Shown in pieces: positions 2,982-35,057 of a stretch of 45,437 bases of DNA; positions within the stretch are counted from its first letter, which is position 1, and the number at the start of each line of letters is the position of its first letter. Under the pieces are notes generated by a model, which was not told the DNA's origin, did not search any database, and saw only the letters and a list, made by a program, of their open reading frames with translations. The DNA is from a virus. The position numbers were made by a program, and so were the translations under genes. The DNA lies in IMG/VR virus record IMGVR_UViG_3300036846_000965, positions 1 through 45,437 of that record, one strand, 5' to 3'.

Positions 2982-5900
2982 ATGAGTTCATCGCCATCCT
3001 GGATCTACGACAAATCGAGCACCACAGGCGGCGGGCCTGGTCCCGATTTCGTGCCAGCGCCGCCGGTGGTGATCGACGTTCCTAATGTCAGCGTGCGCGA
3101 CGTCTACGATGGCCAGCAGCAGATCGACGTTCCCTACACCGTTCCGGGCGCGACCGCAGCCAACTGGAAGGGCGCGGCGGTGTACCTCGAAGACCCGGAT
3201 CTGAGCTCGCACGTCGCGGGAGTGCTCGATGGATCCGCGATACTCAACGGCTCGACGCAGCTATCGGGAACGTGGAATCCGACCAAAGAAACCGATTCGG
3301 TCAAATCGCCCGCAACGCTGCTCCTCGACGGCCAGCCGGCCGCGCGCTCGATCCGCGTGTACCTCGCGAGCTTCGGCCCGACCACCAACGCAACGCTCGC
3401 ACGCGCCACGGCAACGAACCCGACGCCATCGGTGGTGATTCAGGTTCCCGCTTACTCCGGCAAATACGTGCGCGGCCAGGAATACGGGATGCTCATTTTG
3501 AACCCGAGCATCACCGTCGTCGATGATTTCGACAACCCCGACCAGCCGCTGTACCACATGAATTTCTATTACGAGGAGCCGGATCCTTCGATCCCGCTTC
3601 CTCCCGGCATGGATGGCTTCGGCGGCGTGCAAACCGTTTACGAATACCCGAGCGGCCAGCGGATCCAGGCGAAGTTTCTCGATGCGAAAAAGCCGCTCTC
3701 CTGGGTGTCCGATTCCTACCCCGCCGTGACCGGCACGTTCCGCGTGTGGTTCGCGAGCGCCGATATCAACCAGCGGGTGAATACGATCGTTCCAGGCGTC
3801 ACGCCTTATGTGGACGTGTCGATCGTCTACCCTCCGCCTGATCAGCTCACCTCGCCGGTGGTCACCGATTTTGCGATTTCCTCAACCCGATGGGAGTGGC
3901 TCACCGGAAACGTGATCCAGGCCGAGGCCGATGCGACGTGGACGCCTCCCGATTCGTCGCGCTATTCGGGCGTCGAGTTCTGGCGCACCGATGTGAAGCC
4001 TCCTGTCAAATTGGGCGACGCGGGCGATCTGCTGTCGCAGTTCACGCTTGAAACTGTCAATTGGCCGCAGACGCCCGAAGACTGGACCATCACCGCGATC
4101 GCCTACGACTACAAAGGCAAGCTGTCGGACGATCCGGCGAACCCCTCGAAGTTCTCGCCTCACGCGATCTGGCACGTGGGGCCGCCGGTTACGGGCGATG
4201 CGCCGCTCGTAGACGCGACGAACGCGACAGCGACGTACACGCAGGAGCTTGGCTCTGATGGCGTCGTGCGTATGAACTGGACGATTGGCGGGTGGGTGAA
4301 TCCTACCGATCCCCAATTTGCGGGAGTGACCATCGCGCGAGTCGATCACGTCACCGGCGTGACCACCATGTGGGACGTGCCCACCGGGCAAACGACGTTT
4401 ACAACGAATTGGGAGCCAGCGCCCGCAGCGCGGGATTTCGATTTCTACTTCCTGTCGCGCGACCCGCAGGGCGTTCTCAACTCGCTCCTGGTCGGCACCA
4501 CACCAGCGCTGCTCGCGCAGCCCTTCGCGCCGATGGCAGGCGAAATCATCGCCAGTAGGTTGCCCGATGGCTGGTGGAACGAGGACGAGTTTTCATGGCC
4601 GACCTATCCCGCTGACGGCGGCTTCACCGTCGATCAGATTGTCGCGCCGAAAATTTACGTCGGCTCGATCTTGCGTATCGGCGGTGGGCAGGTAATTGCG
4701 AGCGACGATAAAACGGCCAGCTTCGCTGGAAACAAAAACGGGCAAATCGCGGTGTACAACTCGCAGAACGTGATTCGCGGCTGGATCGGCGAGCAGGACT
4801 CGACCGGGACGCCCGACAATCCCGCCGCGCATTCGGTTTACGGCGCTTGGTTCGCCGAGCTCTACGTGGGCGGGGCGGGGCCGCCGAGCGCTCCGCTCTA
4901 CGCGACGAATCAGGGCGTTGTGATCGTGGGCGGTTTCGACACGCAAACACCGGGCGGGACGTCCTACTATCCCTACATCTCCATCCGGCGCAACGACGGG
5001 ATCGAGGTGGGTCGCATCGGCGCGCGCCTCGCCTATTCTTCAGCGGCCAACGGCGGGCAGCTGGTGCCTCCGGGGAATCCAGCTGACATCGGCGGCGCTT
5101 GGTTTTCAGAGTTCGCCATCGGCGGCCAATCGCTCGCTGACTGGAGAATTCTGTCGCGCCGCGATCCAACGACAGCGGGCGGAAACGACCTGGTGAACAT
5201 TCGCAATGTGAACAAATTCACCATCGACTGGCCCGCCAATTACCCCTATCCGGCGTCGAATCCCAACAACGCCGCGATGTCGCTCGCCTTCGGATCCGAC
5301 GCCTATGTGTACGACGTGGCGAACTCGCAGTACAACAAATTTCCGGGCATCTCGCTCCTCCGCACCTCGACCACGCACGGCATCAACCTGATCAATCGCG
5401 GCCTGGTGCTTTACTACCCGCAGACCTACGGGACCGCGGGCGCAAAGGCGGCATCCCTCATCACCTACAACGGCGATCAGTACGGCGGCGATGCCGGAAC
5501 ATTTTGGTCCGAACTTACGATGTACTCGACGGTTTTCAACGGGGCCAACGTCTCGCTGCGTTCAGGAAGCAGCGGCAGCGGCTCGGCGTATTTTTTGCTT
5601 GTTACGCAGATTGGGCAACGTTCGATCGAGATCACCGAGGACTCTTCGCACCTGCCGATTGTGAACGTGTACGCGCTTAGCAATTGGAACGGGCCGCTCA
5701 TCGACGCAACCGGCACCTTCGTTGGCGGAAACGTCTCCATAACCGGAAGCGTAACCGCTGGCGGCGGCGTTTCTGACATCTTGATTCGCAAGTCGGACGG
5801 GAAAATTCTAATCGACAGGAACGGGAGTTTCGTCGGACCCGGAATCAATACGCCGGGCGGCGTTGGTTGCGCGGGCGTGAATCCGCTTGTCAGTGGTACG

Positions 5901-18139: not shown

Positions 18140-18309
18140 GTGAAGAAATCAAAATCGCGTTTATCCAAATCGGCAGCGATACTCTCGCCGCGCTCGAACG
18201 GCGGCGGCAGCAGTGCGAAGCCGAATACGAATCTCCGGCAACCTACGACGATGCGATTTGCGCTTTGGTCGTCGATTACTACAACCCGGATGTGTTTGGT
18301 GGTCGATGA
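18136..18309 (+). CDS. Hypothetical small protein (57 aa)
   Basis: ATGA overlap with the previous gene, and overlapped by the next by 20 bases. Acidic, helical, with no recognisable motif. Part of the run leading to the integrase. Confidence 0.5.
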   Translation: MSEEIKIAFIQIGSDTLAALERRRQQCEAEYESPATYDDAICALVVDYYNPDVFGGR

Positions 18310-21139: not shown

Positions 21140-22078
21140 ATGACAAACGTTCCGTCCATGCACATCATAATTGTCGTCCTCGACCGCATCGAGCGGTACG
21201 GGAAAAAGAACGGCCATTGCTACATCCGTTATTCGACACTCGCCGAGGAACTCGGACTCTCGGTATGGGCAATCCGCCGCGCGATCGCCATTCTGCGGCT
21301 TGCCGGCGCATCGGCGCCCTACGTCCGCCAGCGCCACCGCGTCGAGTTTGCCGATTTCAAGACCATCCCGACCAGGGCTCAAATTGCCGCGTGTCTCGCC
21401 GCCGAGCATGGGGCGGAGCGCCCTATGCCCAAAGCCGAGCATGGGGCGGAGCGCCCTATGGCATGGGGCGGAGCGCCCTATGCTCCTAATATGGACCGCG
21501 CGCGCGTTGGATTTGAATATGAAGAAGATGTGTTAGAGAGTACGGTAGCAGTAGCGGACCGCGCCCAGCCGCTTGAAGGCGGCGCGGCCCGCTTCACTTC
21601 TGCGAAGGGCGCTGAGTCATGTGTTTCGGGCGCGGCCCCCCCGAAAAAGCCGGTGGCGAAGGTGGTAGAAATGGCCGCCGCCGCGCGAATGGCGGCCTGT
21701 GGCGCGTCCGGTGGCGCTATCCTAGGGGAAGGTGCCATGACTCCCCCGATGGACGCCTTAAAACGCGCGGAAACCGTCTTTTCGCCGCCTCCGCAAAATT
21801 CGGCCCCGGAAGCCGCCGCGATCTCGCCCGATGATTCGCGCCTGCCGGAGGTCGCCGCCACGATCGCCGCCGTCGAGCGCGAGAACAGACTGAAATCCGC
21901 GCCGGCATTCATCGCCCGAAAGATCCTCGCCGTCTGCGACCAGGCGGGCCTCGCCTGGGATCGGGCGCGGCAACTGATTCAATCGCACGATAACGCGGGC
22001 CGCTTCACCGGCGTTGGCTCCGCAAGCTACCTGCTCACCTTCATTCGCAACGCTGCACGCGAATCTCAGGAGGCCTGA
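21140..22078 (+). CDS. Helix-turn-helix replication initiator candidate (312 aa)
   Basis: ATG after AAAGGGGGAAGCG. Residues 1-75 form a winged helix-turn-helix (YSTLAEELGLSVWAIRRAIAILRLAGA) like the N-terminal domain of phage and plasmid initiators. A low-complexity, repeat-bearing middle (residues about 88-210) is followed by a C-terminal helical domain (PAFIARKILAVCDQAGLAW, then YLLTFIRNAA). The iterons in the middle match the lambda O arrangement, in which the initiator gene contains its own origin. No helicase loader or helicase was recognised next to it, so it may recruit host helicase in another way. Confidence 0.6.
   Translation: MTNVPSMHIIIVVLDRIERYGKKNGHCYIRYSTLAEELGLSVWAIRRAIAILRLAGASAPYVRQRHRVEFADFKTIPTRAQIAACLAAEHGAERPMPKAEHGAERPMAWGGAPYAPNMDRARVGFEYEEDVLESTVAVADRAQPLEGGAARFTSAKGAESCVSGAAPPKKPVAKVVEMAAAARMAACGASGGAILGEGAMTPPMDALKRAETVFSPPPQNSAPEAAAISPDDSRLPEVAATIAAVERENRLKSAPAFIARKILAVCDQAGLAWDRARQLIQSHDNAGRFTGVGSASYLLTFIRNAARESQEA
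21407..21482. other. Three palindromic iterons, putative replication origin
   Basis: A 21-bp near-palindrome (arms CATGGGGCG and CGCCCTATG around GAG) is present three times without change at 21407-21427, 21440-21460 and 21462-21482. Starts are 33 and 22 bp apart, that is three and two helical turns. The third copy is read in a different frame from the first two, so the repeat is kept as DNA, not as peptide. A relatively AT-rich stretch follows (about 21505-21555). This is the layout of a lambda-type origin. Confidence 0.65.
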
Positions 22079-27632: not shown

Positions 27633-27756
27633 GGCGCTGCTGTTTATCGCCGTGCTGCTGTTTCTGTTTCTGTCCCTGGGCATGACGGTTCCGAAGCTGG
27701 CGCTTCTCCCGTTTGGGCTGGCCCTGTGGTGCATTGCGGATCTAATTGCCCTGTAG
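27610..27756 (+). CDS. Small two-helix membrane protein (48 aa)
   Basis: Two hydrophobic segments (LLFIAVLLFLFLSLG and LPFGLALWCIADLIAL) separated by a short basic turn, TVPKLA, predict a hairpin across the membrane. Size and topology would suit a small holin-like or superinfection-exclusion protein, but nothing proves either. It overlaps the end of the leftward AT-hook gene on the other strand. Confidence 0.45.
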   Translation: MNIQNFRKALLFIAVLLFLFLSLGMTVPKLALLPFGLALWCIADLIAL

Positions 27757-28195
27757 TCGAGAGCGGCTCGCGGACCGCCGCAAGCCGGTGCCCCTCGGCG
27801 AAGCGGAACGTCGATTTGTCCATCCAGCCTTCGAAGCGCCGCGGCGTCTTGAGGCGAATCAGCCGCTTCGATTCGAGGTTGGTGCAGATGAGAAAGCCGT
27901 CTTCGGTGATCGCCTCAATCCGCACCGGCACCGTTCTCCCGGCCATCTTGACGCGATACTGGTCGCCGACCTTGAGCGCGCTGCGCCGGCAGGCTGGCTC
28001 GTGCGACCGGAGCGTCGTTTTGTCGAACACCTGGCCGCATTGAGGGCAGGCGAAAAGATGCTTCGGGCGACCTGGCCCGCGCTCGGCTGGTCCGCGCGGC
28101 CGCGCAGATCCGCGCCACTGGCGCGGATTTTTAAGCTCCTGGTCGGGCTTGCGCGGACGGCCGCGGCGTTTCGTAGCGTCGATTAATTTCATCAT
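27644..28195 (-). CDS. AT-hook / C2HC zinc-finger DNA-binding protein (183 aa)
   Basis: N-terminus has AT-hook-like RGRPRKP (11-17) and PGRPK (41-45). A single C2HC finger follows: Cys50, Cys53, His65, Cys69 in CPQCGQVFDKTTLRSHEPAC. Residues 75-120 resemble a small SH3-like beta barrel (VGDQYRVKMAGRTVPVRIE). The C-terminal 45 residues are low-complexity. Leftward, ATGA-coupled to a coiled-coil gene with its own promoter: a two-gene cassette inserted against the main direction. Probably a DNA-binding regulator or chromatin-like protein. Confidence 0.6.
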   Translation of the reverse strand: MMKLIDATKRRGRPRKPDQELKNPRQWRGSARPRGPAERGPGRPKHLFACPQCGQVFDKTTLRSHEPACRRSALKVGDQYRVKMAGRTVPVRIEAITEDGFLICTNLESKRLIRLKTPRRFEGWMDKSTFRFAEGHRLAAVREPLSTTGQLDPQCTTGPAQTGEAPASEPSCPGTETETAARR

Positions 28196-28458
28196 CGCGC
28201 CCCTCCGAGGCGCTGCTCGATTTCATACAGCCGTCGCTCGACCACATCGACACGCCCGGACAGCGCGGCGTCGAGGTTCGATTGATCGGCCTCGAGCTTG
28301 CGCAGCCGTAGCGTCTGCCCCTCTGAGAAGGCGGCGAAGCCGCGTAAAAGTTCCGTCTGCATCTCGCGCATCTTTTCGACCAGCACTTCGGTCTGCGCGT
28401 TGGTCGCCTCTTTAATCTGGCTCTTGATCCACTGCTTATCTTCGTCGTTTAACGCCAT
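28192..28458 (-). CDS. Coiled-coil protein (88 aa)
   Basis: Almost entirely alpha-helical with heptad spacing of Leu and Val (residues 18-85). No membrane segment or Cys. First gene of the leftward pair; may multimerise and pair with the AT-hook protein encoded next. Confidence 0.65.
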   Translation of the reverse strand: MALNDEDKQWIKSQIKEATNAQTEVLVEKMREMQTELLRGFAAFSEGQTLRLRKLEADQSNLDAALSGRVDVVERRLYEIEQRLGGAR

Positions 28459-28481
28459 AATTTGTTCACTTTCATTACTTC

Positions 28482-28510
28482 ATTATAAAATACGCAAGGG
28501 CCTTTGTCAC
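28482..28510 (-). promoter_or_regulatory. Leftward sigma70 promoter (GTGACA-17-TATAAT)
   Basis: On the minus strand, GTGACA (28510-28505) and a consensus TATAAT (28487-28482) are 17 bases apart, 24 bases upstream of the coiled-coil gene. Confidence 0.75.
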
Positions 28511-28560
28511 GTGAATCTTTCAATTAATCCCCCGCACCGAAAACCCGATGGTTTTGGCGC

Positions 28561-28611
28561 ACTCTAAATCCTCCTGCCCCGCGCGCCCACTCTAAATCCT
28601 CCTGCCCCGCG
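28561..28611 (+). repeat. Two copies of a dispersed C-rich repeat
   Basis: A 23-bp unit with TCTAAATCCTCCTGCCCC occurs at 28561-28583 and 28589-28611. A third identical copy is at 32521-32543, and diverged copies with AAATCGNCCTGCCCC lie at 32485-32506, 33154-33176, 33191-33213 and 33229-33250. Confidence 0.8.
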
Positions 28612-28745
28612 TAGGCTTCTAAGCGCCGGGCGAGAGGCTGGCGATCGATCCGGGGCGGCGATCGAAAACGCGCTCGGCAGCGGAGCCGCCGGCAACGCCT
28701 GGCAGCAAGATTTGCATCGGCGATGCGAATCCGGCTGCAGCAGCT

Positions 28746-28812
28746 GATCCGGGTCGATCCGGCTTGATCCGGGTCGATCCGGGTTGACCCGGCTTGATCC
28801 GGGTCGCTCCGG
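28746..28812 (+). repeat. Tandem 10-bp repeats (GATCCGGGTC type)
   Basis: Six full units and a partial one: GATCCGGGTC alternating with GATCCGGCTT or close variants. A 10-bp period puts each unit on the same face of the helix. They end 26 bases before a promoter-like element. Confidence 0.85.
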
Positions 28813-28838
28813 AGCCGAGAATTCAAGCCCGTCCGTTG

Positions 28839-28875
28839 TGAAAATAGCCTTTGCGCATCTTTTCGAGGTCGGACA
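28839..28875 (+). promoter_or_regulatory. Shared promoter-like element, copy 1
   Basis: TGAAAATAGCCTTTGCGCA at 28839-28857 contains a possible -35 TTGCGC (28851-28856). A weak -10 such as CAGTAT lies 17 bases later. The same sequence precedes two other accessory units (31890, 32692). Downstream is GCGCC-CTATATAA-GGCGC (about 28890-28907) and then the gene at 28936. Confidence 0.6.
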
Positions 28876-28935
28876 GTATGGTGGTGCGCCCTATATAAGG
28901 CGCTATCTCAGTAAAAGGATTGGAGTTAGAACGAT

Positions 28936-29118
28936 ATGACAAACGTGAAAGTAACAGTAAAGGGTACCGTAATGACGCTAGAAATTGACTTGAGCAAGCG
29001 CTTCGGCAAATCGGCGTCGGGCAAGACCACCATCGTCGCCACAACCGCGGGCAACCAGGCAGCGCCGAATAATCCGGCTATCAGCTACGGCTTGAACGTG
29101 TACACGAAAGGCGAATAG
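28936..29118 (+). CDS. Conserved small phage protein (60 aa)
   Basis: ATG after a GGAG-containing leader. The sequence, with VTVKGTVMTLEIDLSKRFG, SASGKTTIVATT and a final YGLNVY, is a pattern I have seen as a stand-alone protein in phages and host genomes. It looks like a small beta barrel. Function unknown. First gene of its own transcription unit. Confidence 0.65.
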   Translation: MTNVKVTVKGTVMTLEIDLSKRFGKSASGKTTIVATTAGNQAAPNNPAISYGLNVYTKGE

Positions 29119-29123
29119 CAGCG

Positions 29124-29471
29124 ATGGAAAAAACCCAAGCCAAGCAACTTTTGAAGCGCGCGGCGGAGCAGGCCATCGCTTGCCAGGACGGCTGCAACTC
29201 GAGCGGAATCGCGATTTCCTTCGCCGAGATTATCCGCGAGATGTGCTCTATCGGCGGAACCCGCTGGCGGAACGAGCACCCGATTACCACGCTGTTTTTG
29301 AGCAAGCTCGTCGAGCTCAATCATTCATCGTGCTACTGCACCGATTGCATGAACCATTTCGGAGCGGCGTATGACATCTGCAAACGAATCGCCGACGGCG
29401 AGGACGATCCGACGCTCGCTGCCTTTTGGGACGAAGCGCGGCGCGATCGGGAGGTTCCAGCCAATGCGTAA
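29124..29471 (+). CDS. Conserved phage hypothetical protein (115 aa)
   Basis: Segments LLKRAAEQAIACQDGCNSSG, FAEIIREM and HPITTLFLSKLVEL match a familiar phage protein of unknown function. A distinct C-terminal part adds CYCTDC, a possible metal site. Follows the previous gene after five bases. Confidence 0.65.
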   Translation: MEKTQAKQLLKRAAEQAIACQDGCNSSGIAISFAEIIREMCSIGGTRWRNEHPITTLFLSKLVELNHSSCYCTDCMNHFGAAYDICKRIADGEDDPTLAAFWDEARRDREVPANA

Positions 29472-29498
29472 TCCGACCAGGGTCGGCGGAGGGGAGCG

Positions 29499-29654
29499 AT
29501 GAAGTTTTTGATCCGCTACTCGGTCGACTACTCGCTGCTCGTCGAAGCGGCCAGCGCGGACGAGGCGATTGAAATCGCCGCCAATACGGATGAGGACGAT
29601 TTCGCAGCCGTAATTTCGGAGTTCGAAGCGGAGGAGCAAGCCGATGGCGTGTGA
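29499..29654 (+). CDS. Small acidic protein (51 aa)
   Basis: Strong ribosome site GGAGGGGAG before the ATG. Beta-alpha pattern KFLIRYSVDYSLLVEAASAD then an acidic helix; this is the layout of many short phage proteins. Overlaps the next gene by 11 bases. Confidence 0.6.
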   Translation: MKFLIRYSVDYSLLVEAASADEAIEIAANTDEDDFAAVISEFEAEEQADGV

Positions 29655-29826
29655 CTCCTGCCAAGCGCTGAGAATTAACGGCGTATTCTGCCACGAAGCG
29701 GGGTGCCCCAACGGGCGCTCCCGCTGGTGCCGGAATCGCCAGATTTGGATAAAGTTGCGGACCTGCTTTGAATGCGGCTGCGACGTAGACGCAGGCGAAC
29801 CCTGCTGTGAAGGAGATCAATTTTGA
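29644..29826 (+). CDS. Cys-rich phage zinc protein (60 aa)
   Basis: MACDSCQALRINGVFCHEAGC and a second half with CFECGC and CC give two zinc knuckles. The first half is a widespread phage motif (CxxCQALxINGVFCHExGCP). Function unknown; probably nucleic-acid or protein binding. Confidence 0.7.
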   Translation: MACDSCQALRINGVFCHEAGCPNGRSRWCRNRQIWIKLRTCFECGCDVDAGEPCCEGDQF

Positions 29827-30461
29827 GGCTGTTATATCTGGATCCAAAAGGCGCTCATGTTATCGAAGCGCCGCGATCGAACAAGCGAGCGCCGCTCGAT
29901 AAAGGGATCTGCAAATTCATGGTGTATTACGACAAAACGATTCAAATCGTCGACCGGGAGCGCGTGCGCGTCCGGAGCGAGGCTGGCAACGCTGAGTACG
30001 CGATGCACCTCGCTGACGACGTGTACATGATCGCCGCGTCAGCGCCCATCGCCCGCTTCGACGAAATGTTTGCGAAACTCACGCCGGAATTTATCGTTGC
30101 GTACCGGACGCTGCACGCGCAAATTGCAGCGGACCCCAAGCGCTGGACCTGGCAGGAATACCGCAAGCGGCGAGACGCGCTGGCCAAGCGCTACAACCCG
30201 TCAAAGGCCGCAGCGGGGAAGGCCATCACCAAACTGCCGCAGACCGAGGTTATGGATCTCCGCACGCAGGACATGCGGATCTACAACCTCAACCCGATCG
30301 CCGCGGTGGCCGCAGCCTACGCGCAAGTCGAGTGCAACGACTTCAACACCTGGGATTACGAGCAGAAGTACTACGGGATGGTCCGCAGCTGGCCATCGAA
30401 GAAACCAGGCGCGACCGTGGTCGCGTGCGGCAACCAATCGGCTCTGGAGCGGGCGCTGTGA
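29823..30461 (+). CDS. Hypothetical protein (212 aa)
   Basis: TTG start overlapping the previous stop (TTGA). Strand-rich N-terminal half (IQIVDRERVRVRSEAG), helical second half with a basic patch (RKRRDALAKRYNPSKAAAGKAI) and aromatic C-terminus. No recognised domain. Confidence 0.55.
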   Translation: MRLLYLDPKGAHVIEAPRSNKRAPLDKGICKFMVYYDKTIQIVDRERVRVRSEAGNAEYAMHLADDVYMIAASAPIARFDEMFAKLTPEFIVAYRTLHAQIAADPKRWTWQEYRKRRDALAKRYNPSKAAAGKAITKLPQTEVMDLRTQDMRIYNLNPIAAVAAAYAQVECNDFNTWDYEQKYYGMVRSWPSKKPGATVVACGNQSALERAL

Positions 30462-30796
30462 GCGACGTCTCCGAGCGCGTGGCGCACCTGAACGACCTGG
30501 CTCGTCAAGCGATGGGCCTCGCGCCGAATAGCACCGTGCTGCACACCCGCGGCGTCATGGCGCTCCCGGTCGAAACGATAAACGCGATCCGGGACGCCGT
30601 GCGCGACTTCAACGCTTTCACGCCGGGAGACGATCCCTACGGCGAACGCGATTTTGGATCGGTCGTGGTCGACGGTCGAAAGATTTACTGGAAGATCGAC
30701 TACTACGATGCGAATCTCGAATTTGCAGCGCCGGATCCAACCGATCCGCGCGCCACAAACCGCGTGCTCACCATCATGCTCGCGGAGGAGTACTGA
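30458..30796 (+). CDS. DUF3768-family protein (112 aa)
   Basis: GTG start overlaps the previous stop. The whole protein follows the DUF3768 pattern: IAxLND, GVMALP, FNAFTPGDDPYGERDFG, IYWKIDYYD and a final RVLTIMLAEEY. The family is found in phages and integrated elements, mostly of Alphaproteobacteria; its function is not established to my knowledge. Confidence 0.85.
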   Translation: MSDVSERVAHLNDLARQAMGLAPNSTVLHTRGVMALPVETINAIRDAVRDFNAFTPGDDPYGERDFGSVVVDGRKIYWKIDYYDANLEFAAPDPTDPRATNRVLTIMLAEEY

Positions 30797-30802
30797 AACC
30801 AG

Positions 30803-31105
30803 ATGAAAAAGGAAAATATGAAACCGAAACCGAAACAGAAACAGAAGCCGACGCCCAACGAGGAGCCGAAGCCCGCGCCGTCGCAGGAGCAAGTAGTAGG
30901 TGCGCTGCGGGAATCGCTTTCTAGCAACGTGCGGGAATTGATCGAGGCGCAAATCGCATTGGTCGACGGCACCCTGGCGATCGACGGGCGCGATCTGCGG
31001 CCCGCGCTAGAACGCTCGAAAAAGGCCGTCCTGGCCATCGACCCGGCTGCGCAGTTCAAACAGCCGGCACCAACGCCAGCCAAGCCGAAACGGAAAGGAA
31101 AATGA
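30803..31105 (+). CDS. Hypothetical protein with Lys/Pro-rich ends (100 aa)
   Basis: Low-complexity Lys/Pro/Gln N-terminus (residues 1-30), a helical core (VVGALRESLSSNVRELIEA) and a basic tail (PKRKGK). May bind nucleic acid. ATGA overlap with the next gene. Confidence 0.5.
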   Translation: MKKENMKPKPKQKQKPTPNEEPKPAPSQEQVVGALRESLSSNVRELIEAQIALVDGTLAIDGRDLRPALERSKKAVLAIDPAAQFKQPAPTPAKPKRKGK

Positions 31106-31368
31106 AAATTCTGATCGCGATCGAGAATCGGGAGCAATACCGGTTCCGCATCACGGTCACCGCCGATGGCCGCCTGGTTCATGACCAGGTGGCCCAAGCG
31201 GGCGACGTGATCGAGGCGCGCAACCGGCTTATCGATCGCTGGAGCTCGCGTGCCGACGTGTCGGAAGTGATCGCGGCGGCCATCCCCTGGCATGTCGAAA
31301 TCGCTCCGCAGCGGGAAATGACCGCGGAATTGAAACGCAAACTCAACTTAGAAGGAAAACTCAAATGA
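31102..31368 (+). CDS. Hypothetical protein (88 aa)
   Basis: Beta hairpin at the N-terminus (FRITVTADGRLVHD) followed by a helix and basic C-terminus. ATGA-coupled on both sides. No family recognised. Confidence 0.5.
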   Translation: MKILIAIENREQYRFRITVTADGRLVHDQVAQAGDVIEARNRLIDRWSSRADVSEVIAAAIPWHVEIAPQREMTAELKRKLNLEGKLK

Positions 31369-31622
31369 CAACTATTAACAAGGCGCTGATCGGTCGGCGC
31401 TTACAAACAAAAGTGCCCGATGCAAACGAAGTCGAGCGCGGCCTGGTCAAGATTCCCATCGGCTGGCTCGGCACGATTGAGTCATTCGATGGAGGGCATT
31501 ACACCGTCGCATGGGACGATGACGCCGAGGGCCACGACATGGGCTGGTGCCGGTGGACGGCCGCGGAGATCGAGGCCGATGCAATTCTGCTTGCCGCGCC
31601 CATCGCGGGAGGCAAGCAGTGA
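31365..31622 (+). CDS. Small SH3-like protein (85 aa)
   Basis: The core IGWLGTIESFDGGHYTVAWDDD has the strand-turn-strand form of small SH3-like barrels in phage proteins. Acidic, soluble. Coupled to the membrane protein that follows. Confidence 0.55.
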   Translation: MTTINKALIGRRLQTKVPDANEVERGLVKIPIGWLGTIESFDGGHYTVAWDDDAEGHDMGWCRWTAAEIEADAILLAAPIAGGKQ

Positions 31623-31768
31623 AGACACTCACAGAGATCGTGCAGTCGATCCAGCAGGCGCTGCACATTACCAAACCGCTGCTGTTCGAGCTCGTGCTGT
31701 TCGCCTGGGCTGTGATCGAGATGGGCAAATTCATTTGGGCCGTCGCGCTCGGCAACGGAGGCGAGTAG
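31619..31768 (+). CDS. Small membrane protein (49 aa)
   Basis: GTG start overlaps the previous stop. One membrane helix in LLFELVLFAWAVIEMGKFIW, probably with a basic interruption near the inner face. Last gene of this unit. A role in exclusion or lysis is possible but unsupported. Confidence 0.5.
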   Translation: MKTLTEIVQSIQQALHITKPLLFELVLFAWAVIEMGKFIWAVALGNGGE

Positions 31769-31787
31769 TTAGCGCGTCAATTCCCGC

Positions 31788-31830
31788 GTACCAGACGCGC
31801 TATAGCGCCTTTCCGGGGCTCGTCTGGTAC
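31788..31830. promoter_or_regulatory. Nested inverted repeats between two accessory units
   Basis: GTACCAGACG (31788-31797) and CGTCTGGTAC (31821-31830) form a perfect 10-base stem. Its loop contains the palindrome GCGC-TATA-GCGC (31797-31808); a further TATAGCGCG lies near 31859. No T-run follows, so a regulator site or an intrinsic structure is as likely as a terminator. Confidence 0.5.
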
Positions 31831-31889
31831 CTCACTACCTGCCAATTTTCCGACTCGTTATAGCGCGTGCAATTTTGCAACTTTCGATC

Positions 31890-31930
31890 TGAAAATAGCC
31901 ATTGCGTACTTTATCCGTACACGGTATACA
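31890..31930 (+). promoter_or_regulatory. Shared promoter-like element, copy 2
   Basis: TGAAAATAGCCATTGCGTA (31890-31908), with TTGCGT at 31902-31907 and TATACA at 31925-31930 exactly 17 bases later. The gene at 31966 begins 35 bases downstream of the -10. Confidence 0.7.
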
Positions 31931-31965
31931 GGTGGTGGGCGCAAGACGCCCCGGAAGGGAAAAAT

Positions 31966-32226
31966 ATGAACTCAAACGAAACGAAAAACAAAACACAAAC
32001 CACGGCGGGAAGCCCCGCGATGAAGTCACAGTTCCGAATCTGGTGTGAGGTATGGGGCGGCGTCACGGGCTCGCGTGCCGCTTGGTTCAAGTGCAACGAG
32101 GCTATCCACAATTTCCTAACGCGCGAGGCAGCGCAGAAAGAAGCCGACAGACTAAACGCGGACCGAGCGACGGATACCCGCGCCTCCTACCGCTACACAG
32201 TGCGCGAAATTGAGGCCGCGCGATGA
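31966..32226 (+). CDS. Hypothetical protein (86 aa)
   Basis: GGAAGGGA upstream of the ATG. Disordered polar N-terminus (ETKNKTQTT), then a strand-helix-strand unit (FRIWCEVWGGV, EAAQKEADRLNAD, RYTVREIE), a form common among small phage proteins that display residues as a beta-alpha-beta. Function unknown. Confidence 0.55.
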   Translation: MNSNETKNKTQTTAGSPAMKSQFRIWCEVWGGVTGSRAAWFKCNEAIHNFLTREAAQKEADRLNADRATDTRASYRYTVREIEAAR

Positions 32227-32435
32227 CGCCGGGATTTTGCCCGTATTGTGGAACGCCGCTTTCGAGCGGCGCCTGCCCCAAATGCAAATCGACGCCAGCG
32301 CAGTATGCAGCAGGCCAAAAAGCAGTTCACAATCTCGCCGGATGCACGCAGTCGCTTGTCGCGATTCCGTGCGGGATTTTGGTCCTGATAGTCGCCGCGC
32401 TGCTAATCGGCGGCGTCATCGGGATGTTCAAATGA
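32223..32435 (+). CDS. Zinc-ribbon membrane protein (70 aa)
   Basis: CPYCGTPLSSGACPKC at residues 6-21 is a zinc ribbon of the type placed before membrane helices; residues about 45-68 (LVAIPCGILVLIVAALLIGGV) form one membrane helix. ATGA-coupled to the gene before. Confidence 0.7.
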   Translation: MTPGFCPYCGTPLSSGACPKCKSTPAQYAAGQKAVHNLAGCTQSLVAIPCGILVLIVAALLIGGVIGMFK

Positions 32436-32774
32436 GCTTCCCATCGTGAGCGCGATCGCAACGACAACCAGGATTTCGGGCGGGCTGCAAATCGGCCTGC
32501 CCCGTCCAGTTTTCGAGCGCACTCTAAATCCTCCTGCCCCGCGTGCGCTTATAGGGCCGATGCAATCGCCGCTGACGAGCGCGCGGCCAATCGCCGCGGG
32601 TGAGCGCGCCGCGAAGCGGTGCGCATCCCGATTGCGAACAAGATTCGCATCGCCGTTTGAAATCGCGCGCGCATCGCTTGACAGGCGGCTCTGAAAATAG
32701 CCTTTGCGCACTTTATCCTAATATAGGACAATAGAAGAGTAGGACGTAACGTACTACAACGAAAGGACTAAACT
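32436..32774. other. Intergenic module: C-rich repeats and third shared promoter
   Basis: Holds C-rich repeat copies at 32485-32506 and 32521-32543, a middle section with CAAGATTCGCATCG that resembles the region near 28705-28725, and the promoter-like element at 32692. No gene seen. The order matches 28561-28935, so the two stretches look like copies of one module. Confidence 0.6.
32692..32732 (+). promoter_or_regulatory. Shared promoter-like element, copy 3
   Basis: TGAAAATAGCCTTTGCGCA at 32692-32710, identical to copy 1 over 19 bases and continuing with CTTTATCC as in copy 2. TTGCGC at 32704-32709; GACAAT at 32727-32732 is 17 bases on. Serves the gene at 32775. Confidence 0.65.
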
Positions 32775-33122
32775 ATGAACTCAAACTCAAACGACACTGA
32801 AAAACAAGCTTGGCAACGGCGGGTATGCGGGGCGCTGCTCAAAGCGGTGCAGGAACGGGGGATTCGCGCCGTGATGGAAGAAGGCTTGGTAACGGTTTTG
32901 TATTCGTCCGGCGACAAGCTGTACATCACGCTCGAAAACGGCATTTGGAGCTCGCGATTAAAAGGCGAGCCATTCAGCGATGGGCCGTGGACATTAGAGG
33001 ATCGAGGCAAAAGCATTCGAGAAACGGCTGAGATTGCGATCGTCGCGGACGCGGTTGCAAAGCACGCTATAGAATTTGCTGAAATCAATGGCTTGGAATC
33101 GCCGCGTGCCAGCGCTTCATAA
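32775..33122 (+). CDS. Hypothetical protein (115 aa)
   Basis: GAAAGGA before the ATG. N-terminus MNSNSND resembles the MNSNET start of the gene at 31966, in keeping with duplicated leaders. Central strands (LVTVLYSSGDKLYITLENG) and a C-terminal helix (ETAEIAIVADAVAKHAIEFA). Single-gene unit. Function unknown. Confidence 0.55.
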   Translation: MNSNSNDTEKQAWQRRVCGALLKAVQERGIRAVMEEGLVTVLYSSGDKLYITLENGIWSSRLKGEPFSDGPWTLEDRGKSIRETAEIAIVADAVAKHAIEFAEINGLESPRASAS

Positions 33123-33656
33123 CGTCGCTCGCACAAGCGGAAAATTGGGGCAGACGTCAAATCGTCCTGCCCCATCGCAGTTTCAAAGCATTCAAAAATC
33201 CTGCTGCCCCGTCTGGTTTTGCAGCGGGCTGCAAATCGTCCCGCCCCGTCAGAGTTTCAAATCGCCGGCCGCGGCCGGCCTGGGCGGCGGCGCTGGCCAT
33301 CCAGATCCTGCAGCAGCTTTAGAAACGTTTTGAAGCCCGATGTACATCGCGATCCGGGCAGGCGATCAAAAGGCGTTTCACGGGAAGAAATAGCGAAACG
33401 GCGAGGAAATGGCGAAATGGCGAAGCCAGGGCGAAAAGACGAAGCCAGGACGAAACGGGAAGGCGAGACGAAAGGCGATTAGACGGCGTTGTGGAAGGCG
33501 AGGCGAAATGGCGATTGGGCGTAAGGAAGGCGTATGTAGAATTAAGACTTTTTAATTGGGAAAAAGTGCGAAAAGACTTGACTAGTACCACGGCAAATGT
33601 TAAATTGAAGAGTACCCAAACGGTACTAGAAACTCAAAAAAAGGAAAATTACAGAC
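33123..33656. other. Intergenic stretch: C-rich repeats, purine-rich repeats, promoter
   Basis: Three diverged C-rich repeats at 33154-33250, then a 16-bp perfect palindrome (GCCGGCCG-CGGCCGGC, 33264-33279). From about 33375 to 33530 the DNA is made of loose purine-rich repeats containing GGCGAAA and GAAGCCAGG. No credible gene; short open frames here have repeat-derived, strongly basic translations. Confidence 0.55.
33578..33606 (+). promoter_or_regulatory. Sigma70 promoter (TTGACT-17-TAAATT)
   Basis: TTGACT at 33578-33583 and TAAATT at 33601-33606 with 17 bases between, 50 bases upstream of the DUF3489 gene, in locally AT-rich DNA. Confidence 0.7.
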
Positions 33657-34082
33657 ATGAAAAAGACGACAAAAAAGACGGCCACACAGACGGCCACACA
33701 GACGGCCAGTGCGCCAAAGGCGTTAAAGGCCAGTAAGGAATTGGCCCTGGCCCTGGCCCCAGTCGCGGCCCCAGTCGCGGCCCCAGTCGCGGCCCCGGTA
33801 GTCAAGTCGGACATTGCGCCCGTCAATTCCGCAGTGTCGCCGGAAGGCTACATTATCTCGACTTCGCCAGTCGCGGTATATTCGCGCCCTAGCAAGAAAA
33901 GTGCGGCTATCGCGCTATTGCGCCAAGGCGTAGACATTCAAGTACTTATGGACACTTTCACGTGGCAAAGGCATACGGTACGCGGTTTTATTTCCGTCCT
34001 TCAGAAGGACGGCATTACCGTGCAGTCTCTCTCCGTCAGTGGCCACAGAATTTACAAAATTGTGGAGGAAGTCGCGGCCTAA
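33657..34082 (+). CDS. DUF3489-type winged-helix protein (141 aa)
   Basis: AAGGAAAA upstream of the ATG. Residues 1-55 are low-complexity, with repeated TATQ and APVA units that reflect tandem DNA repeats. Residues 78-135 (SKKSAAIALLRQGVDIQVL, WQRHTVRGFISV, LQKDGITVQSLSVSGHRIYKI) match the DUF3489 domain, a small helix-turn-helix found in phages and proteobacterial genomes. Likely a DNA-binding regulator. Ends 27 bases before a strong terminator, so it is a self-contained unit. Confidence 0.8.
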   Translation: MKKTTKKTATQTATQTASAPKALKASKELALALAPVAAPVAAPVAAPVVKSDIAPVNSAVSPEGYIISTSPVAVYSRPSKKSAAIALLRQGVDIQVLMDTFTWQRHTVRGFISVLQKDGITVQSLSVSGHRIYKIVEEVAA

Positions 34083-34109
34083 AAATTCCCAAAAAAAAGT
34101 GCAATAATA

Positions 34110-34138
34110 AAAGGCGCAAGTCATTGACTTGCGCCTTT
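34110..34138 (+). terminator. Long-stem terminator after the DUF3489 gene
   Basis: AAAGGCGCAAGTCA pairs perfectly with TGACTTGCGCCTTT around a single base, 14 bases per arm (the innermost pairs will open to make a loop). It ends in TTT and is preceded by A-runs, so it could work in both directions. Confidence 0.8.
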
Positions 34139-34565: not shown

Positions 34566-34721
34566 ATGCGCGAATTTTCTCCCTCGCGTCACATTGAAAA
34601 GGCAGTCGAAAGGACGATAGTATTCGCACTGCCTCGCATTCTCTGCGCTACCGCCGCACTTGCCTTTTTTTGCTATTGCATAGGCGTTATCTTGCGCCTT
34701 TTAGGATATTCAAATGTCTAA
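34566..34721 (+). CDS. Small membrane protein (51 aa)
   Basis: Starts one base after the previous stop. Residues about 19-46 are hydrophobic (IVFALPRILCATAALAFF then CYCIGVILRLLG), giving one or two membrane passes after a basic N-terminus. Possibly involved in exclusion or lysis; not provable here. Confidence 0.5.
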   Translation: MREFSPSRHIEKAVERTIVFALPRILCATAALAFFCYCIGVILRLLGYSNV

Positions 34722-35029: not shown

Positions 35030-35057
35030 GCGGGCCTGCGGCCCGCGGGCTTTGTTT
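35030..35057 (+). terminator. GC-rich hairpin, probable terminator
   Basis: GCGGGCC (35030-35036) and GGCCCGC (35040-35046) enclose TGC; the following GGGCTTTGTTT provides a T-rich end. Confidence 0.5.

Follow-up and report, generated by a model that had tools for sequence, protein, structure and literature searches.

The window, that is, the whole stretch of DNA analysed, is the entire IMG/VR virus record IMGVR_UViG_3300036846_000965 (45,437 bases), which has linear ends and may be incomplete. Protein scans detected a phage gene set consisting of an integrase, an excisionase-like protein, methyltransferases, a YqaJ recombinase, a terminase, a portal protein, a protease, and capsid proteins. 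From this set we assigned the record to a temperate tailed phage, a siphovirus-type soil phage of bacteria. The terminase had kin in Wolbachia WO and Rhodobacter phages, and matches of the DUF3768 protein in Rhizobium phages hint at Alphaproteobacteria as the host group. When the DNA of the accessory region was compared with plasmids, the matches listed fell on the DUF3768 gene and were nearly all alphaproteobacterial. The same region had no match in phage DNA, and no prophage counterparts were found in sequenced genomes.

The accessory region contains three units, all on the + strand and made up mostly of ORFans. Unit 1 (28936–31768), delimited from ORFs and their translations, is a tightly packed series of small genes at 28936, 29124, 29644, 29823, about 30461 (DUF3768), 30803, 31102, 31365, and 31619, the last of which encodes a small membrane protein. 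Unit 2 (31966–32435) comprises two overlapping ORFs, encoding an 86 aa ORFan and a 70 aa protein with a zinc-ribbon-like N-terminus, and unit 3 (32775–33122) encodes a 115 aa ORFan. No relatives of the unit 1 protein encoded at 29823 or of the unit 3 protein were found in IMG/VR, and the unit 2 proteins had none in phage records. Units 2 and 3 start with the same ATGAACTCAAAC and have unrelated bodies; these common first codons are short and A-rich and could reflect convergence.

The box, its copies and their surroundings

A 19-base box, TGAAAATAGCC[T/A]TTGCG[C/T]A, had three exact matches in the record, all on the + strand: copy 1 at 28839–28857 (TGAAAATAGCCTTTGCGCA), copy 2 at 31890–31908 (TGAAAATAGCCATTGCGTA), and copy 3 at 32692–32710 (TGAAAATAGCCTTTGCGCA). 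The chance expectation was a mean of 0.04 exact matches, and three were seen in none of 100 dinucleotide shuffles. The distance from the end of the box to the ATG was 79, 58, and 65 bases for copies 1, 2, and 3 (ATG at 28936, 31966, and 32775). An earlier note on this DNA had placed the motif at these three positions, about 60–80 bases ahead of gene starts, and had taken its long conserved part, beyond the needs of sigma70, as a hint of common control; all of this agrees with a single box, unlikely to recur by chance, in front of three accessory units. Copies 2 and 3 were 93% alike across 29 bases (31888–31916 and 32690–32718), and GGTGGTG occurred on the + strand at the same offset in copies 1 and 2, 41 bases past the start of the box (28880–28886 and 31931–31937). 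The site is asymmetric and without a palindrome, unlike the dyads in the cassettes of relatives described below. Rfam gave no match at the box or leaders. Leader hairpins (GCGCC...GGCGC at copy 1, GGGCG...CGCCC at copy 2) were left out of the evidence because they folded no better than shuffled sequences. Sigma-54 and Bacteroidetes-type promoters, lambda CII sites, and DnaA sites, compared by eye, each misfitted some of the copies.

A search of the rest of the genome, as the earlier note had advised, found no further copy with three or fewer mismatches in the 45,437-base record. Allowing four mismatches and using 25-base versions of the box, we detected a diverged copy 4 on the − strand at 28485–28509 (TGACAAAGGCCCTTGCGTATTTTAT), which matched the nearest box at 20 of 25 positions; the score never rose above 19 in 300 dinucleotide shuffles of the window. 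Including this copy, the box points in the direction of transcription in four of four cases (three exact, one diverged). Copy 4 overlaps a sigma-70 promoter match on the − strand, GTGACA-N17-TATAAT (28482–28510), with 11 of 12 hexamer positions matching, a level reached by 0.25% of shuffles. This promoter belongs to a leftward operon that begins just beyond copy 4 and comprises two − strand genes. The first (28192–28458) is an ORF for an 88 aa, coiled-coil-like protein, and the second (27644–28195), recognised from its translation, encodes a 183 aa protein that is a candidate regulator. The genes overlap by four bases, and in codon-position GC both are like the known genes of the phage. The 183 aa protein contains an AT-hook-like RRGRPRKP and a zinc-finger-like CxxC...HxxxxC motif, with sub-threshold zf-C2H2 matches, and from these motifs it looks like a DNA-binding protein; no kin were found in IMG/VR or in phage records.

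The stretch 28459–28935 is a single divergent control region, with copy 4 on one side and copy 1 on the other. Between them, at 28746–28812 on the + strand, lies a tandem repeat of 6.7 copies of the 10-base unit GATCCGGGTC, a unit length of about one helical turn. The window's densest GATC cluster (five in 80 bases) coincides with this repeat, which lies between two divergent transcription units; the phage has genes for several DNA methyltransferases.

Outside the box, the 5' flanks of the copies agreed at 18–41% of positions (ungapped, 58–60 bases), whereas the box itself agreed at 18–20 of 21. Such low flank agreement argues against a fresh segmental duplication. Copies 1 and 3 nevertheless shared an exact 27-base upstream block, GCGCACTCTAAATCCTCCTGCCCCGCG: two CACTCTAAATCCTCCTGCCCCGCG repeats upstream of copy 1 (28557–28612, + strand) match the block ahead of copy 3 exactly over 27 and 25 bases. 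A second block, CAAGATTYGCATCGSCG, agreed at 15 of 17 positions and kept its order relative to GCGCACTCTAAATCCTCCTGCCCCGCG; it is represented by CAAGATTTGCATCGGCG upstream of copy 1 (28706–28722, + strand) and aligned with 32639–32655 upstream of copy 3. This patchwise identity points to old copies under selection, or to gene conversion, rather than to recent duplication. Together with the ORFan units and the phage's own YqaJ-type recombinase, it would also agree with the boxes being recombination linkers only, short shared stretches that serve to shuffle accessory units and are kept by gene conversion rather than by regulation. We consider this very unlikely, as linkers predict neither the steady placement 58–79 bases before gene starts nor the overlap of copy 4 with a strong promoter.

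The 27-base block is one member of a family of repeats found again after unit 3. Two + strand copies with 37-base spacing lie upstream of copy 3 (32471–32543) and three with the same spacing after unit 3 (33141–33250), the first of the three being a GC-rich hairpin fold. The family (28557–28612, 32471–32543, and 33141–33250) is intergenic, ends in CCTGCCCCG, shows the 37-base spacing where it is tandem, and lies around units 1 and 3. In relatives, comparable places are occupied by repeats of ATTTCACCCC or GGGGTTAAATC. GC-rich hairpin repeats were present upstream of copy 3 and a structured region upstream of copy 2, and predicted terminators were no more frequent than by chance.

Promoter fit and a possible regulon

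We compared the boxes with sigma-70 hexamers in two registers. TTGCGY, which matches TTGACA at 3 of 6 positions, leads with a 17-base spacing to CAGTAT in copy 1, TATACA in copy 2, and GACAAT in copy 3, for totals of 6–7 of 12. The alternative register, YTGAAA-N17 (GTGAAA in copy 1), leads to TTTCGA, TATCCG, and TATCCT, with 6–8 of 12. At spacings of 16–18, the best scores for copies 1–3 were 7, 7, and 8 of 12, which 60–80% of shuffles reached, and only copy 4 scored above chance. The earlier note had taken TTGCGY as the −35 element, a reading that we could not support, since no register of copies 1–3 was better than shuffles. Its 17-base-spaced TATACA and GACAAT are indeed present in copies 2 and 3, but the CAGTAT of copy 1 had been overlooked and the hexamers are at chance level. 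As the −10 sequences of copies 1–3 are not above chance, transcription might not start there.

The promoter fit at copy 4 places the −35 at the TGAAAA end of the box, and the YTGAAA register is the one that copies 1–3 have in common with copy 4. Over 29 bases, starting at the CTGAAA end and closing with TATCC, copies 2 and 3 are alike, and this stretch is the core-promoter span in this register. GGTGGTG of copies 1 and 2, however, directly follows the −10 of the TTGCGY register, which counts against the YTGAAA register. In either one, sigma-70 would need fewer than the 19 conserved bases, which points to an added protein.

Plain constitutive sigma-70 promoters of morons, copied by recombination and carrying an UP-like A-rich stretch in their upstream part, would account for the placement ahead of gene starts, the A-rich GAAAATA, and the hexamers at 17-base spacing, and sigma-70 fits do occur elsewhere in the same region (35063 and 33578). 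We regard this as unlikely, though not negligible: hexamer scores at copies 1–3 are at chance, neither sigma-70 nor an UP element requires the conserved GCC...TTGCG, and divergence has affected the flanks but not the box. The earlier note had also considered a phage-specific polymerase. The box is long and conserved, of T7-promoter-like length, but no RNA polymerase or sigma-factor gene, and hence no cognate polymerase for a single-subunit RNA polymerase promoter, was found among the large and mid-size ORFs scanned in this possibly incomplete record, and we put the probability of such a promoter close to nil. Given the chance-level hexamers and the lack of a polymerase gene among the scanned proteins, a plain promoter is a less likely identity for the conserved element than a regulator site or a promoter that depends on an activator.

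The reading we prefer, to which we give about an even chance of being right, takes the box for the conserved core of a regulatory cassette that is specific to this phage and defines a small regulon. A phage regulator would bind the box and act together with the host sigma-70 polymerase. On copy 4 it would cover the leftward promoter, resulting in self-repression, and at units 1–3 it would steer weak or activator-dependent starts. Units 1–3 and the leftward operon would then form one small regulon, with the 183 aa protein as the first candidate for the regulator, and the phage would probably switch the box-bearing accessory units and the likely regulator gene as one set. The cassette (upstream repeat block, box, ribosome site, and first codons) probably spread by recombination, gaining unrelated small genes.

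This reading draws on the copy number, orientation, and significance of the box and on its conservation over diverged flanks. The blocks of copies 1 and 3 in the same order, the position of copy 4 on an 11/12 promoter, ATGAACTCAAAC in units 2 and 3, and the similar architecture in relatives are also consistent with it. As to the regulon within the phage that the earlier note had suggested, one conserved box does front three units; the common regulator is something we infer. If the reading is true, a temperate phage can bring newly gained genes under control with no need for a separate new promoter each time, and accessory regulons could be found through private multi-copy boxes before ORFans. 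A wider version is distinctly doubtful: a lineage of temperate soil phages might carry fast-diverging private cassettes, copied before incoming ORFans and answering to a single phage-encoded regulator, here the AT-hook/zinc-finger protein.

Relatives and known systems

Terminase relatives at 60–75% identity were without the box. The earlier note had proposed checking related phages for the same box; at three mismatches, the records of 21 relatives contained none, and nearly all of the box-linked accessory genes were missing from relatives as well. A record of the same species, L004, is 97% identical but ends at window position 35033. The exact box had no match in IMG/VR, and the box is private to one phage. 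A looser box pattern gave five IMG/VR matches, all within long ORFs of unrelated phages, and an extended pattern from copies 2–4 gave one, within an ORF of an AT-rich phage; these were rejected.

When the small membrane protein at the end of unit 1 was used as the query, L114, L112, and others with the same gene neighbourhood were recovered. L114 contains seven copies of a promoter-like cassette, TTGAC...ATGCATGCA, with GATGCATGCATC in most, located before genes (20, 732, 1702, 2510, 3432, 4050, and 5942). Six of the seven have a recognisable CAnAnT-like −10 a few bases ahead of the ATG, and a CACCCCA element lies just 5' in all complete ones of these six; the seventh is 59 bases ahead of the membrane protein gene. 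Two of the cassette genes begin with MNNTAV and have unrelated bodies. The spacing of a few bases from −10 to ATG in six of seven copies suggests leaderless or very short-leader mRNAs. In L112, a promoter-plus-palindrome cassette, TTGATTCGTGSCACGAATCATGAGACGAT, occurs twice before accessory genes.

The TTGAC-GATGCATGCATC cassettes of L114 resemble the box in being multi-copy before accessory genes, in their association with the small membrane protein gene, and in shared first codons, but they differ in their unrelated sequence, the palindrome in the spacer, and a good −35. Judged by these records, phages of the group repeatedly carry control cassettes of their own, in several copies ahead of accessory genes and with unrelated sequences; their relation to the box is one of analogy, not homology. 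The comparison suggests that the layout is conserved while the sequence is replaced, which is what one would see if the boxes of each phage kept pace with that phage's own regulator.

Among known systems, the layout of the cassette comes closest to PeSLs and to L5 operators. The PeSL elements of T4-like phages, reportedly described by Arbiol in 2010 and cited in PMC4503421, combine a promoter-like box with hairpin- or terminator-like repeats, in several copies before ORFans in a variable region. The likeness lies in a repeated box before ORFans in a variable region, perhaps also in the nearby hairpin repeats, and the difference in the temperate siphovirus-type phage and in a fourth copy that would drive a putative regulator. 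The recognisable early promoter that each PeSL copy has was not found at copies 1–3 (7, 7, and 8 of 12). With respect to the gene shuffling described there, first codons common to unrelated genes were present here, and the cassette was found in no other genome. The SAS/ESAS of cluster K mycobacteriophages are likewise short asymmetric repeats, in one orientation, at the starts of unrelated non-structural genes, but they have a Shine-Dalgarno core and lie 3–7 bases before the start codon (PMC3203893), compared with 58–79 bases before the ATG for the box.

The box might instead be an asymmetric operator or stoperator of a phage repressor that blocks initiation or elongation into the accessory units in the prophage, in which case copies 1–3 need no promoter; we think this quite unlikely. 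Phage P1 is a further example of asymmetric repressor sites beside L5. The stoperators of the cluster A mycobacteriophages L5 and TipsytheTRex are 13-mers, more than twenty per genome, served by a repressor with two DNA-binding domains (PMC9283540, PMC6550527). Like them, the box is asymmetric and intergenic, has a phage-private consensus, runs in one orientation along transcription (four of four), and has one copy on a strong promoter. It differs in its length of 19–27 bases, in its four sites (three exact and one diverged in 45 kb) rather than more than twenty dispersed ones, and in the lack of a known repressor: the HTH proteins among the scanned ORFs were an excisionase-like HTH at 18140 and an HTH_36 at 21140, with no recognisable HTH immunity repressor. 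Because the PeSL promoter and the L5 site number were both absent, we filed the box under neither and retained the phage-specific regulatory cassette as the preferred reading.

Several minor features were also observed. In relatives, hammerhead-ribozyme-like elements (stem CTCCA/TGGAG, CTGATGA, GAAAC, and GTC) are repeated directly before accessory ORF starts, at 1344, about 1696, and 1966 in L112 and at 3727 and 4191 in L106 (= L110). Those of L106 (G013) occupy the same spot as the control cassettes, and those of L112 lie elsewhere in its accessory region. The L106 pair has T/A at the C3/G8 positions, a compensating change, and Rfam gave weak matches, below the cut-off, for the L112 elements. 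Several hammerheads near accessory genes of phage type have been described before, for example, in Agrobacterium (PMC3088659). In the relative L099, TTATCCACA (the DnaA-box consensus) followed by GATAAATC occurs twice on the − strand near a ParB-methyltransferase gene (17803 and 18646). In the window itself, 34079–34137 gave a sub-threshold match to the Rhizobiales sRNA Atu_C9, and a 13-pair hairpin, AAAGGCGCAAGTCA/TGACTTGCGCCTTT (34110–34138), overlaps a TTGACT-N17-TATTCT match; the hairpin arm CTTGCGCCTTT was found again at 34688, before the ORF at 34714.
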